NCBI RefSeq assembly: GCF_002163585.1
Contig: NZ_CP015579.1
Coordinates: 2,294,001 to 2,358,000 of the forward strand
DNA length: 64,000 bases
From: Tatumella citrea
Lineage (GTDB): Bacteria > Pseudomonadota > Gammaproteobacteria > Enterobacterales > Enterobacteriaceae
Direction: 5' to 3'
Position 1 is the first letter of the stretch, and each line of letters opens with the position of its first letter. A program made the position numbers and the translations under genes. Under the pieces are notes generated by a model. That model saw only the letters and a list, made by a program, of their open reading frames with translations, searched no databases and was not told the DNA's origin. This document shows, in pieces, positions 7,962 to 19,981 of this stretch.

Positions 7962-8223
7962 GTTTTTCCCATCTTTACCTTCCGGGACGATGCCCGCAAC
8001 TATATTCAGGAAAATAACGCGCAACCTGTGCCATCTGAGCCGTAGCCTGTCAGCAGAGATAATTGTGTTTCATGTGGATGCTTTAAAACATTAGTAAAAG
8101 TTATGATGAAATTGCATTTTCGTACTGACGGCACTTTCTGTTACCACAATAACGACCACAAGTTATGCAGAGTGAGAATAAGCATCAGAATAGCCCCTTG
8201 AAAAATGGTATGGCGCACACATC

Positions 8224-8232
8224 TGATATACT
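8224..8232 (+). promoter_or_regulatory. Extended -10 promoter for msrA
   Basis: TGATATACT (TGN-TATACT) lies 38 bp before the chosen msrA ATG. No good -35 is seen at 17 bp, as expected for an extended -10 promoter. It supports the shorter reading frame of msrA. Confidence 0.4.
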
Positions 8233-8269
8233 AATAACTATTATTCAGCGCGAAACAGAGGAATTGAGT

Positions 8270-8803
8270 ATGACGATTGAATACGCAGTGATTGCAGGAG
8301 GATGTTTCTGGTGTACCGAGGCGGTGTTTAAAAGCATCAATGGCGTTGAATCGGTAGAAAGTGGCTACACCGGCGGTAGCGTCGAAAATCCGACTTATCC
8401 TCAGGTTTGTGAAGGTACCACCGGACATGCTGAGGCAATCCGTATTGGCTTTGACCCTGCCGTGGTAGGTTATGGTGATCTGCTGGATATCAGTTTCGCT
8501 ACCCATGATCCAACCCAGCTCAACCGTCAGGGCAATGATATTGGTACTCAATACCGTTCTGCCATTTTTCCAGCCACAGCGGAACAAGAACAGGAAGCGA
8601 AGGCAGCTATTCAGCGTGCCTCAGAAGATCATACAGCGCCGATTGTGACCACCATTGAACCTCTGCAGACCTGGTATCCGGCAGAAGATTACCACCAGAA
8701 CTACTGGGATGGTGAAGGACAGCGTAACGGATATTGCATGGCTGTGATCCCTCCGAAGTTACAAAAGCTGCGTAAGCGTTTCGCAGCCCAGGTAAAAGAG
8801 TAG
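8270..8803 (+). CDS. msrA: Peptide methionine-(S)-sulfoxide reductase MsrA
   Basis: Repairs oxidised methionine in proteins, in the cytoplasm, using thioredoxin. The catalytic motif GGCFWCTEAVF puts the nucleophilic Cys at residue 12. YTGG, GHAEAIRI and the C-terminal PAEDYHQNYW are family hallmarks. The start at 8270 is chosen because AGAGGAATTGAGT precedes it and the protein then begins five residues before the core fold; a frame extending 35 codons further upstream has no ribosome site. The resulting 177 aa is the compact MsrA type rather than the E. coli type with an N-terminal extension. It is monocistronic. Confidence 0.93.
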   Translation: MTIEYAVIAGGCFWCTEAVFKSINGVESVESGYTGGSVENPTYPQVCEGTTGHAEAIRIGFDPAVVGYGDLLDISFATHDPTQLNRQGNDIGTQYRSAIFPATAEQEQEAKAAIQRASEDHTAPIVTTIEPLQTWYPAEDYHQNYWDGEGQRNGYCMAVIPPKLQKLRKRFAAQVKE

Positions 8804-8810
8804 TCCAAAA

Positions 8811-8848
8811 GACCGCAATCCCGGCTAAAATGGCTGCAGATTGCGGTC
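8811..8848. terminator. Hairpin after msrA
   Basis: GACCGCAAT and ATTGCGGTC form a perfect 9-bp stem 8 bp past the msrA stop. There is no T-run on the plus side, so termination efficiency is uncertain. Confidence 0.5.
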
Positions 8849-8904
8849 AAATAAACCAATTAGCTCATGAGTTAAGCGGGCAAAACAAAAGAAGAAAATA
8901 ATTC

Positions 8905-8933
8905 TTGACCGTTAGCAGCTGACTCCCTATAGT
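8905..8933 (+). promoter_or_regulatory. Strong tRNA-Ser promoter
   Basis: TTGACC, exactly 17 bp, TATAGT, with an A-rich UP-like tract just upstream (8881-8900) and a GC-rich discriminator (ACCGCCCC) just after. That combination is typical of growth-rate and stringently controlled stable-RNA promoters. Confidence 0.8.
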
Positions 8934-8974
8934 ACCGCCCCGTTAGCCGCTACAGCGGTTGACAGGAAAAATGT

Positions 8975-9062
8975 GGTGAGGTGTCCGAGTGGCTGAAGGA
9001 GCACGCCTGGAAAGTGTGTATACGGCAACGTATCGAGGGTTCGAATCCCTCCCTCACCGCCA
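8975..9062 (+). tRNA. tRNA-Ser (GGA)
   Basis: 88-nt class II tRNA with encoded CCA. The acceptor stem GGTGAGG pairs with CCTCACC. The anticodon loop CTGGAAA gives anticodon GGA, reading UCC/UCU. A long variable arm (TGTATACGGCAACGTA) and the T loop GGTTCGAATCC are present. The last 19 nt of this gene recur twice more downstream. Confidence 0.97.
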
Positions 9063-9076
9063 TCATTTAAAGAAGA

Positions 9077-9106
9077 GCTCGCATATCACTGCGGGCTTTT
9101 TTTTTT
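9077..9106 (+). terminator. First tRNA-Ser terminator
   Basis: GCTCGCA, a 6-nt loop and TGCGGGC (one G-T pair), followed by ten T residues. This is a canonical factor-independent terminator 14 nt after the tRNA CCA. Confidence 0.85.
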
Positions 9107-9243
9107 GCATAGTGTCCGGGAGGGAGGGTGAGAACCCTCGCAGGGTTCGACAAAACGGAGTTTTGGATGGCCGCAGGCCACCCGCAGGGCGTGCTGCAAC
9201 GCAGCGCGTCAATCCCTCCCTCACCGCCATCATTTAAAGAAGA

Positions 9244-9271
9244 GCTCGCATATCAATGCGGGCTTTTTTTT
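9244..9271 (+). terminator. Second copy of the tRNA-Ser terminator
   Basis: Same stem as the first copy, with one loop base changed and eight T residues instead of ten. It lies within the second repeat unit. Confidence 0.8.
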
Positions 9272-9408
9272 GCATAGTGTCCGGGAGGGAGGGTGAGAAC
9301 CCTCGCAGGGTTCGACAAAACGAAGTTTTGGATGGCCAGAGGCCACCCGCAGGGCGTGCTGCAACGCAGCGCGTCAATCCCTCCCTCACCGCCATCATTT
9401 ATTAAGAG

Positions 9409-9436
9409 AGCCTGAATGCAAGTTCAGGCTTTTTTA
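9409..9436 (+). terminator. Final terminator of the repeat array
   Basis: AGCCTGAA, a short loop and TTCAGGCT, then TTTTT. Unrelated in stem sequence to the two repeated terminators, it closes the array after the third partial copy. Confidence 0.8.
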
Positions 9437-9632
9437 TTGCCTGCAGACTGGATTACTTTGCCGCACGAAAAAGCTTAGCGAGATATCAAAGGTAACTTCC
9501 GGTAGGATGGTCAGTAAAGGTAACCGGTACTCAGCCGGAGTGCGCCTGGCCCGGTATCATGCAGCTTACAAACGAGCTGCAATACAGTAATACTTTCATT
9601 TTTCAGTTAAAAACAGCGAAGGGAGAAAGTTA

Positions 9633-10874
9633 ATGACACTCCAGAAATCCCGCACGTTACCTCACCTGCTGGTGATTGGAGGAGGAACGGCCGGAATCGG
9701 TGTGATAGCAAGCCTGAAAAAGCGCCTCAGGAATCTGCAGATTACCGTCGTTGATCCTTCAGAAAATCACTACTATCAGCCAGGCTGGACCCTGGTGGGT
9801 GGCGGACTTTATGATTATCTGAAAACAGTCCGGCCACTGCGCGAAGTTCTGCCTTCGGATGTCAGTTGGGTTCAGGAAAGTGTCACTGCCATTGATCCTG
9901 TGAATAAACTGGTCACTACCGGGTCGGGTAAACAGATGCACTATGACTTTCTGGTGGTCGCCTGCGGGGTTGTATTACGCTGGGACAAAATCGAAGGGCT
10001 GGAAGAAACTCTGGGTCGCAATGGTGTGACTTCAAATTACCGGCCAGGTCTGGCGCCCTATACCTGGCAGCTGGCGAGCAATCTTTCCACCGGTAACGCC
10101 ATCTTTTGTCAGCCCATGACGCCCTTCAAATGTGCGGGTGCACCGCAGAAAGCGCTGTATCTCTCCTGCGAACACTGGCAAAAAAAAGGGGTGCTCAGCA
10201 ATATCAATGTCAGCTTTAATGTGGCCGGAAAAGCCATTTTCAGCGTCCCTTATTTTATCCCGATTCTTAAATCGTACCTGGATCGTTATACTGCCACCGT
10301 CAGTTACTCGTCTGAACTGATCAAAGTTGACGGTGATAAACAACTGGCCACCTTCCGTATCAGCGATGAAGGCCAGCCAGACCGCGAAGAAACCTATCCG
10401 TTTGATATGTTGCACGCCGTTCCCCCACAGACGCCACCGGTTTTTATTGCCGACAGTGGCCTTGCCAACTCAGATGGCTGGTGCGATGTCGACCAGAACA
10501 CACTGCAACACCAAAAATATCCGGAGATTTTTGCTCTGGGCGACTGTTGCTCGGCCCCGGCATCAAAAACAGCTGCCGCAGCACGTAAGCAAATAGTGGT
10601 AGTCGCCGAAAATTTACGTAATGTCATTCAGGGGGATTCCTCCCGTACCCATTACGATGGATATGGTTCCTGCCCTTTGACTGTTGCAAGAGGTCGGGTG
10701 GTACTGGCTGAGTATGGTTATCAAAACAAACTGCTGCCCACATTTGCGGGTGAACCTGCGCGCGCCAGTCGCTTCGCCTGGTTCCTGACCGCGCGGTTTC
10801 TGCCATTTTTCTACTGGCGCGGCATGCTAAAAGGCGTTGAATGGTTTGCCCGAAGCAAACCTGAAAAGCAGTAA
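9633..10874 (+). CDS. Sulfide:quinone oxidoreductase-like flavoprotein
   Basis: FAD enzyme predicted to oxidise sulfide and pass electrons to the quinone pool at the inner membrane. The N-terminal dinucleotide fold is VIGGGTAGIG (residues 14-23). KCAGAPQK (Cys167) and GSCPL (Cys347) correspond to the two redox-active cysteines of the SQR/SQOR type. ALGDCC (301-306) is the FAD-binding motif near the C-terminus. The C-terminal aromatic-rich segment (RFLPFFYWRGML) could anchor to the membrane. At 413 aa it is family-sized. GGGAGAAAG precedes the ATG. It stands alone: no persulfide dioxygenase or rhodanese is next to it, so the physiological substrate is inferred. Confidence 0.8.
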   Translation: MTLQKSRTLPHLLVIGGGTAGIGVIASLKKRLRNLQITVVDPSENHYYQPGWTLVGGGLYDYLKTVRPLREVLPSDVSWVQESVTAIDPVNKLVTTGSGKQMHYDFLVVACGVVLRWDKIEGLEETLGRNGVTSNYRPGLAPYTWQLASNLSTGNAIFCQPMTPFKCAGAPQKALYLSCEHWQKKGVLSNINVSFNVAGKAIFSVPYFIPILKSYLDRYTATVSYSSELIKVDGDKQLATFRISDEGQPDREETYPFDMLHAVPPQTPPVFIADSGLANSDGWCDVDQNTLQHQKYPEIFALGDCCSAPASKTAAAARKQIVVVAENLRNVIQGDSSRTHYDGYGSCPLTVARGRVVLAEYGYQNKLLPTFAGEPARASRFAWFLTARFLPFFYWRGMLKGVEWFARSKPEKQ

Positions 10875-19192: not shown

Positions 19193-19981
19193 TTAACTGT
19201 AGGCCAGTAATGTCCGTTGGCACAATTCTGAACGGACACAGTCCTCTTTATCAAAGCGTACCAGCCCAACCAGGTCGTCATCAGCAAAACGTGCTAATGC
19301 ATCCCCCAGCCCCGAAGTGACTCCTGACGGCAGATCACACTGGGTAATGTCTCCGTTAACGATAACAGTTACATTCTCCCCTAAACGGGTCAGGAACATT
19401 TTCATTTGTGCTGCAGTGACATTCTGCGCTTCATCCAGAATGACGAAAGCATTTTCGAAGGTCCGGCCGCGCATATAAGCAAACGGAGCAATCTCAACCT
19501 TACCAATTTCCGGACGCAGACAATATTGCATAAACGAAGCACCGAGACGTTTCACCAGAACGTCATACACCGGACGGAAATAAGGGGCGAATTTCTCAGA
19601 AATATCACCAGGCAGAAAACCAAGATCCTCATCAGCCTGCAATACCGGACGAGTCACAATGATGCGTTCAACGTCTTTGTTAGACAACGCTTCTGCAGCT
19701 TTCGCGGCACTGATCCAGGTTTTACCACAACCAGCTTCCCCGGTGGCAAATATCAGTTGTTTGGTTTCAATCGCAGCCAGGTAACGGGCCTGAGCCTCGT
19801 TGCGGGCAGCAATCACAGAACGATCCCGGGTATCGCGAGCCATGCCAATAGAGTCCATTCCCCCCATCTGCACCAGCGATGTTACCGACTCTTCCTCACG
19901 CTGACGATGACTGCGTGAGTCATTACGGATTACCCGGCGCGCTTCACGACGCGCTTTAATCACTGCTTTCTGTCTTCCCAT
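19193..19981 (-). CDS. phoH: PhoH family ATPase
   Basis: Cytoplasmic P-loop ATPase related to helicase superfamily 1; its exact role is unsettled. Walker A is GEAGCGKT (residues ~81-88) and Walker B VILDEAQN. The 262 aa correspond to the E. coli PhoH core, including the start MGRQKAVIKARREARR and the end CQRTLLAYS. The ribosome site is AAGGTG. In E. coli phoH is a PhoB target; I could not find a clear pho box, but a 12-bp palindrome lies about 50 bp upstream. It neighbours putP as in E. coli, but without the efeUOB genes between. Confidence 0.95.
   Translation of the reverse strand: MGRQKAVIKARREARRVIRNDSRSHRQREEESVTSLVQMGGMDSIGMARDTRDRSVIAARNEAQARYLAAIETKQLIFATGEAGCGKTWISAAKAAEALSNKDVERIIVTRPVLQADEDLGFLPGDISEKFAPYFRPVYDVLVKRLGASFMQYCLRPEIGKVEIAPFAYMRGRTFENAFVILDEAQNVTAAQMKMFLTRLGENVTVIVNGDITQCDLPSGVTSGLGDALARFADDDLVGLVRFDKEDCVRSELCQRTLLAYS

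Follow-up and report, generated by a model that had tools for sequence, protein, structure and literature searches.

A two-unit RtT/tRNA-linked-repeat array behind tRNA-Ser(GGA) of Tatumella citrea, with an arm antisense to its host tRNA

Why should a tRNA gene be followed by tandem copies of its own 3' end, and do such copies matter as RNA or only as DNA repeats? This question was raised by tRNA-Ser(GGA) of Tatumella citrea, which lies in the window analysed in the present study (64,000 nucleotides of contig NZ_CP015579.1, positions 2,294,001 to 2,358,000 of the forward strand). A preliminary description, made from the letters of the window, had reported two full units and a partial third behind this gene, each restarting with the last 19 nt of the tRNA. 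The tandem arrangement was confirmed: both downstream copies were identical to the tRNA end at 19/19 positions (Table 1), with unit 1 spanning 9063-9229 (167 bp) and unit 2 spanning 9230-9394 (165 bp). Behind unit 2, a spacer led to a different terminator-like hairpin, and the array ended at about 9436. The described order of terminator, folded unit and tRNA end was borne out by the hairpin folds, the body fold and the 19-nt copies. Compared with shuffled sequences, the three terminator-like hairpins had z-scores of -5.05 to -6.59, and equally good shuffles were obtained in 0, 0 and 1 of 200 cases; a simple consensus terminator scan of the plus strand listed none of the three. The body of unit 1 folded into a closed, multi-branch structure (-60.4 kcal/mol, z -3.86), in which 9117-9128 was predicted to pair with 9214-9226 (P1) and 9132-9138 with 9142-9148 (P2). 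The two full units differed, as described, by four substitutions and by the length of the T-tract (10 versus 8). The placing of these substitutions in loops held for three of them, which lay inside hairpin loops, both bodies having the same predicted fold, but the fourth was found at the loop edge of the first hairpin, where it extends the stem of copy 2 by one pair. The array was flanked by two open reading frames, 8165-8803 and 9633-10874, which by eye we take to encode a methionine sulfoxide reductase A and a sulfide:quinone-type oxidoreductase, respectively. A match to RF04351 (plastid psbl-rps4 3'UTR) at 9019-9059 on the minus strand scored 32.6 against a cut-off of 68 and was dismissed as antisense tRNA; judging from this sub-threshold match, RF04351 may include antisense tRNA sequence.

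Table 1. Positions of the features of the tRNA-Ser(GGA) locus in the window and the evidence for each.
Feature	Position	Strand	Evidence
Putative sigma-70-like promoter of the tRNA gene, TTGACC-17-TATAGT	8905..8933	+	Consensus scan, 10/12 matches
tRNA-Ser(GGA), CCA encoded	8975..9062	+	ARAGORN; Rfam RF00005, 54.1 bits over 8975-9059
Last 19 nt of the tRNA, repeated end, copy 0	9044..9062	+	Direct repeat
Terminator-like hairpin 1 with T10	9072..9106	+	Fold -16.2 kcal/mol, z -5.87
RtT/TLR unit body 1	9108..9229	+	Rfam RF00391, 49.8 bits (gathering score 45)
Arm of unit 1, imperfectly antisense to the T-arm and acceptor 3' strand of the tRNA	9117..9140	+	Sequence, fold, host-tRNA alignment, permutation tests
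tRNA 3' end, exact copy 1	9211..9229	+	Direct repeat, unit comparison
Terminator-like hairpin 2 with T8	9239..9271	+	Fold -17.3 kcal/mol, z -6.59
RtT/TLR unit body 2	9273..9394	+	Rfam RF00391, 50.2 bits
tRNA 3' end, exact copy 2	9376..9394	+	Direct repeat, unit comparison
Terminator-like hairpin 3, sequence unlike hairpins 1 and 2	9406..9434	+	Fold -16.4 kcal/mol; comparison with Tatumella morbirosei

Both unit bodies exceeded the gathering score of the curated RtT RNA family RF00391 (Table 1), and such units recurred in relatives; the array is therefore beyond chance. We regard it as nearly certain that the locus is, in identity and anatomy, a two-unit array of RtT RNA, or tRNA-linked repeats (TLRs), behind tRNA-Ser(GGA). 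The preliminary description had seen a parallel to the rtT RNA of E. coli on a different tRNA. The likeness was right but understated, the units being RF00391 members above the cut-off, and the tRNA is not new to the family: serX of E. coli K-12, the same tRNA, already carries three family units of 181 bp, likewise ordered as hairpin, body and tRNA end, while serW carries none. The window array differed from the serX units only in copy number, spacer and terminator sequence. It is an ordinary member of the known family, and its host tRNA is one that bears such units in K-12 as well. The T. citrea genome contained 16 RtT matches, 14 of them over the cut-off, at six tRNA loci, namely Tyr, Lys (two), Pro (two) and Ser(GGA).

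As told in the accessible text of PMC8144298, TLRs were first described in 1978 (Egan and Landy 1978; Rudd 1999), K-12 contains 22 of them at ten loci, with one to five units per locus, each sharing 18-19 identical bp with the end of the tRNA or rRNA upstream, and in 2021 they were still called without known function, an early stringent-response role of rtT having been retracted. The window units agree with this account in their 19-nt end, which is that of the upstream tRNA, and in their number, two full units being inside the one-to-five range. They resemble the RtT RNA of RF00391 (E. coli rttR behind tyrV) in score, in a P1 that closes on the tRNA-end copy, in standing as tandem units directly behind the tRNA and, by the fold and the serine alignment, in a GAGAA...GGTTCGA motif with tandem GA in P2. 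The tandem GA in RtT was named from covariation analysis, according to the portions consulted of PMC7657543 and PMC8250186, and the pairing of P1 with the tRNA-end copy is already part of the RF00391 consensus structure. The units differ from RtT at tyrV in their host, tRNA-Ser(GGA), and in their middle hairpins. A BIME-like attenuator cluster is also described in part of PMC2965389 as resembling the rtT transcript, but it lies 5' of protein genes.

RF00391 matches, the own genome included, were found in 6/6 genomes of the genus, 20/38 of the family (19 over the cut-off) and 12/60 of the order (9 over the cut-off); 15 of the 18 family genomes that had no match were genomes of 2 Mb or less. The host was typed for 187 of 193 matches, the 16 of the own genome among them. 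The search for the unit behind tRNA-Ser(GGA) in relatives, which had been proposed with the preliminary description, yielded 35 Ser(GGA)-hosted matches among these 187. For the rest, the closest tRNA upstream was Lys in 52, Tyr in 41, Pro(TGG) in 24, Pro(CGG) in 9, Arg(ACG) in 8, Pro(GGG) in 4, Val in 4, Glu in 3 and Ser(GCT) in 1, and none lay in the surrounding stretch for 6. A same-strand upstream tRNA thus preceded 181/187 matches, at distances of up to 907 bases. The four "Val" units were matches that start inside tRNA-Lys; they were kept in the best-host, GAGAA and terminator counts reported below and left out of the arm and P2 permutations and of the P1 peak, substitution, nearest-relative, G-U/A-C, triloop and precursor-fold analyses.

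Inside arrays, tandem copies were near-identical, and their number varied between relatives. When the middle parts of 138 units were compared, the nearest relative outside the own locus had a host of the same amino acid in 126/138 and was a unit behind the tRNA of another amino acid in the same genome in 1/138. Units look as if each locus had passed on its own, without hops between tRNAs, as far as sequence comparison can tell. These counts, and the finding of no sign of present mobility, argue against the units being the remnant of a very small integrating element that used the tRNA 3' end as its attachment site. Such an origin would fit the repeated 19 nt, which run from the T-loop to CCA as many tRNA attachment cores do, and the occurrence of similar bodies behind many tRNAs and in distant lineages. 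Overall, we consider it very unlikely.

How far the family extends was examined with two further searches. An exact serine-type pattern, which by design favours serine, was found in 38 stretches of named genomes, mostly behind tRNA-Ser, and the genomes included Aeromonas, Marinobacterium, Pseudoalteromonas, Gilvimarinus, Methylothermaceae and four Chlorobiota assemblies. When RF00391 was run on 16 of these stretches, the cut-off was passed in three (L136, L123 and L145); in six serine-pattern genomes no match exceeded it, the best reaching 44.7 against 45, and 0/31 Chlorobium-family genomes reached it. A covariance model, R1, was built from 27 chosen serine units, including one Chlorobium-family training sequence, and samples of more than 40 genomes were scored with stricter filters. 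R1 matched 38/140 genomes of the class, the own included, and in the Chlorobium family 9/31 genomes, including one that had supplied a training sequence. In the sample of the phylum of that family, 7/99 genomes matched, all seven from the family list, and 0/77 genomes outside the list; in the sample of the window's phylum, 22/150 matched, among which 13 genomes belonged to a single family in another class, and one further candidate match (G402) also fell outside the class.

These matches were checked against their surroundings. The checked set of 53 held at least one match from each of the 37 non-own class genomes and 9 Chlorobium-family genomes, not every match. A same-strand tRNA stood upstream within 700 bases in 49/53, and 42/53 ended in at least 13/15 bases of the upstream tRNA end, among them Gln, Arg and Tyr ends that are absent from the model; for the Chlorobium-family subset the counts were 11/11 and 10/11, respectively. 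A second checked set comprised 14 loci, of which 12 belonged to the 13 matched genomes in the other-class family. Here an upstream tRNA was found in 13/14 and a tRNA-end match in 9/14 (11/12 and 7/12 for the other-class family). The family looks wider than its reference model. Individual units of the other-class family (L224-L232, L234, L235 and L237) were TLR-like, one of them standing behind tRNA-Asp. TLR-like units were also observed behind serine tRNAs of the Chlorobium family and other Chlorobiota (L130, L144, L146, L149, L165-L173, L177 and L178), some in tandem and below the Rfam cut-off. The literature search returned no report of TLRs in Chlorobium, a weak negative since the older key literature was incompletely covered.

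Conservation of the RNA structure between genera, which the preliminary description had led us to expect, was found in an alignment of 31 units (one K-12 body and 30 of the 32 distinct serine bodies, the remaining two, whose 3' ends are broken or divergent, being excluded). In this alignment, 96.8% of the paired cells could pair, 11/22 pairs had changed on both sides, and there were 89 cells with two-sided change versus 28 in shuffles. One of five measures, the number of further pair types, was not above shuffles for these 31 units (142/500). When partners were slid by one column, pairing fell to 54-62%. For 27 serine units of wider range, aligned to a hand-written structure, 89.9% of cells were paired, with 65 two-sided cells versus 19 in shuffles and 11 two-sided pairs, a number reached in 15/500 shuffles. 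The paired percentage is partly circular because the structures were derived from the same sequences, and two-sided change is the stronger measure. Another alignment, in which serine by eye seemed shifted by one base against other hosts, was not used for a model. In consensus folding, the Lys group lacked P1 and the Tyr group lacked P2.

The earlier argument for selection, drawn from substitutions in loops, did not hold for the serine units, for which neither test was significant against matched nulls: paired substitutions numbered 2/16 versus 3.2 in the first test and 11/16 versus 12.9 and 13.1 in the second. For tandem neighbours of all hosts (43 pairs), paired substitutions were 30/126 against a matched null with a mean of 35.5 and a minimum of 24. 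With the other structure call the count was 90/126 versus about 102, and 0 and 1 of 100 null sets were as low. The depletion of stem substitutions over all hosts was modest under this second call. A raw count of 35/3106 paired versus 148/2261 unpaired sites was rejected as proof of selection; it is biased because a structure derived from two sequences drops broken pairs.

The departures from Watson-Crick pairing bear on a rival explanation at the DNA level. According to this explanation, the units are palindromic DNA repeats homogenised by gene conversion and unequal crossing-over, with arms made by template-switch correction of quasi-palindromes and with no RNA function. G-U outnumbered A-C departures by 72 to 27 at the genome level in four host groups, which speaks for RNA, but within the serine units the two were equal (8 and 9), as a DNA repeat would have it, and the structure call itself favours G-U. 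The near-identity of tandem copies within arrays and their varying number between relatives also suit a DNA repeat. The same holds for the predicted triloops, of which 173/302 were C-GNA-G (Tyr, Lys, Pro, Ser and other host groups); this loop is very stable in DNA as well as in RNA.

The 5' arm of the unit proved to be an imperfect antisense copy of the T-arm and the inner acceptor 3' strand of the host tRNA, and it can pair with the unit's own tRNA-end copy to form P1. P2 is built from antisense and sense copies of the 5' strand of the T-stem and here contains the GAGAA...GGTTCGA tandem-GA motif. Whether the arm follows its host was assessed first by the best antisense match, for 167 distinct units of 100 nt or more that have a host, each compared with one representative tail per other isoacceptor. 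The own host was the best match for 36/39 Tyr, 42/47 Lys, 29/32 Ser(GGA) and 3/3 Glu units. Weaker results were obtained for Pro (5/33), Arg (5/8), Val (0/4) and Ser(GCT) (0/1); the low score of Pro arises because its isoacceptors share the arm.

Permutation of hosts gave a consistent result. Over 79 representatives (one per genome, host and end variant), the arm matched its own host at a mean of 6.46/8 bases versus 5.27 when permuted, with 0/10,000 permutations as high, and the serine units alone (17 representatives) gave 7.35 versus 6.66, again with 0/10,000; these permutations leave shared ancestry in. The sense and antisense strands of P2 likewise tracked the host T-stem, with 4.10 and 4.28 of 5 bases versus 3.19 and 3.34 (0/5,000 each, 71 representatives). 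At the level of single units in the 8-base test, the own end was strictly best in 66/163, tied in 42 and beaten by another in 55, the rival being the best of 15 other ends. Pro(TGG) failed this test (own 5.04, best other 6.39); Pro and Arg were the weak groups, and Arg(ACG) units tracked weakly or not at all. Over 148 units, P1 pairing had its peak at positions 9-16, counted from the 3' end, which comprise three acceptor bases and the 3' strand of the T-stem. Shuffled arms paired equally well in 1373/7400 cases; because the arms are G-rich, this control was set aside and the host-specific permutations were relied on. In the wider set, tracking was again seen on average (6.44 versus 5.65 permuted, 0/10,000; 41 units), and of the 41 single units 10 matched their own end strictly best, 11 had a tie and 20 matched another end better; among the 10 non-serine units, these numbers were 5, 3 and 2. 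As judged from these comparisons, the arm follows the host sequence on average, not in every unit. The K-12 rrfB-linked repeat (L119 558-725), unlike the tRNA-linked units, had no antisense arm that we could find.

Host tracking by itself suits the DNA-level explanation as well, since strand-templated correction would also yield perfect hairpins and host tracking. Against it stands the replacement of plain antisense: GAGAA occupied the place of the expected TCGAA in 125/167 units of the RF00391 set and in 32/32 Ser(GGA) units. In the wider set, by comparison, GAGAA was present in only 24/53 units and 25/53 kept TTYGAA, the plain antisense, as a DNA repeat would. The recurrence of fold and layout in distant lineages further argues against an origin at the DNA level. 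Taken together, we consider a DNA repeat with no RNA function rather unlikely, and we lean slightly towards selection acting on the unit RNA. For identity, anatomy and selection on RNA, taken together loosely, our joint reading is probable rather than firm, and it was lowered because the GAGAA motif is not universal outside Enterobacteriaceae.

What would such an RNA do? In the mechanism that we propose, only transcripts that read through the terminator would contain the unit. The unit would fold on itself in this read-through RNA, its middle filled by variable, covarying hairpins and its extra CCA-bearing tRNA end locked in P1, and the locked unit would be a structured trailer that is cut off by tRNA processing. 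In serine loci, the repeated terminators may provide back-up termination. A terminator-like hairpin, called by a home-made rule, stood 5' of the unit in 34/35 Ser(GGA), 24/24 Pro(TGG) and 32/51 Lys matches and in 0/41 Tyr matches; because no Tyr unit was preceded by one, back-up termination cannot be a general role of the family. The hairpin differed as a whole between relatives: in L022, assigned to T. morbirosei, the tRNA and the unit are both followed by the type that closes the window array. In a Lys-Val tRNA cluster (L077), units lay between tRNA genes and, provided that the cluster is an operon, would be transcribed. In the same cluster, several tRNA-Lys genes were followed by a shortened unit that lacks P2, between tRNA genes (L077 1500-2900, minus strand). 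The best supported reading is that of a self-folding trailer RNA, which in serine loci would be made by read-through. A locking function of the unit is more tentative and, on balance, doubtful. In the sequence comparisons, folding and literature covered here, nothing was found in support of the sponge or decoy role that the preliminary description had offered.

Equilibrium folding of the tRNA together with its own unit did not show the lock; instead, the arm attacked the true tRNA end, and the 5' strand of the tRNA paired with the far copy. This swapped fold argues against a simple protective lock and raises the hypothesis of a strand-swap switch, in which the arm would displace the T/acceptor 3' strand of the tRNA, the tRNA 5' strand would take the copy in the unit, and read-through RNA would be diverted from tRNA. 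The tRNA alone folded natively, with a mean acceptor probability of 0.97-0.99 by host (76 precursors), and with its own trailer the native acceptor dropped to 0-0.13 by host (64 precursors). The unconstrained fold was favoured over the native-constrained fold by 6.5 kcal/mol on average in serine (0.8 to 11.4) and by 6.9 at the window locus. Trailers of other hosts disturbed the tRNA less than its own in Tyr, Lys, Pro, Ser and Glu, but in five of six groups they still brought the native fold down to 0.15-0.67, and in Arg the effect was about as large as that of the own trailer. A control with reverse-complemented trailers was unsuitable, as it contains perfect antisense. Capping, in which the arm would shield the tRNA from the decoy copy, was also rejected, for the tRNA was not restored when the arm was blocked in folding. 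The tRNA, moreover, is complete before the arm is made, and equilibrium folding takes no account of co-transcriptional folding, modification or processing and is unreliable for long precursors. We consider a strand swap distinctly improbable.

Another explanation for a trailer made by read-through is a small regulatory RNA freed from the tRNA transcript, by analogy with RrB, which binds Hfq and CsrA, or with 3'ETS-leuZ, an sRNA sponge. In the accessible text of PMC8144298, the RrA, RrB and RrF TLRs, situated between the terminators T1 and T2 of rrn operons, are produced by read-through and bind both Hfq and CsrA, and part of PMC4986893 reports Northern signals for two RtTs of Actinobacillus pleuropneumoniae. 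The serine layout of terminator, unit and terminator, here by folding, matches that of rrnB. The host of those TLRs, however, is 5S rRNA, and CsrA binding is predicted to be special to them: only the rRNA-linked TLRs of E. coli score as CsrA binders, and the other 19 score below 0.01 (PMC8144298, as far as its text was accessible). 3'ETS-leuZ is likewise the trailer of a tRNA transcript, but it is a known sponge for RyhB and RybB according to the same source. Further points against a regulatory RNA are the retraction of the stringent-response role noted above and the nature of what is conserved, namely structure and host-derived strands, with no free seed identified in these comparisons. We judge this explanation unlikely.

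The antisense arm that tracks its host is a concrete and testable handle on TLRs, and the matches outside Enterobacterales, including those of the Chlorobium family, suggest that TLRs have a role linked to tRNA precursors and are more than a local repeat. No earlier account of the antisense arm was found, a weak negative since older and subscription literature was thinly covered. In its widest and most speculative form, which we think quite unlikely as a whole, RtT/TLR would be an old and widespread class of tRNA trailers, present in many families of the class, in one family of another class and in the Chlorobium family. It would have arisen by inverted duplication of the 3' domain of the tRNA and would bear an antisense of its own T-arm together with a substitute 3' half, and a strand swap or lock in cis on the precursor would give tRNA-specific control of read-through transcripts.

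Two minor observations were made in and around the window. When 8200-9700 was compared with a plasmid collection, 50 records matched, none across 80% of the stretch; the best match, covering the tRNA and unit region, was a 67-kb record of Serratia marcescens, and many of the matching records were chromosome-sized. Elsewhere in the window, 19198-19391 matched RF02855 (Ysr251, a Yersinia sRNA) with 119 bits, and the same family was found directly behind a truncated serine unit of Mixta mediterraneensis (L150 771-964, 154 bits).
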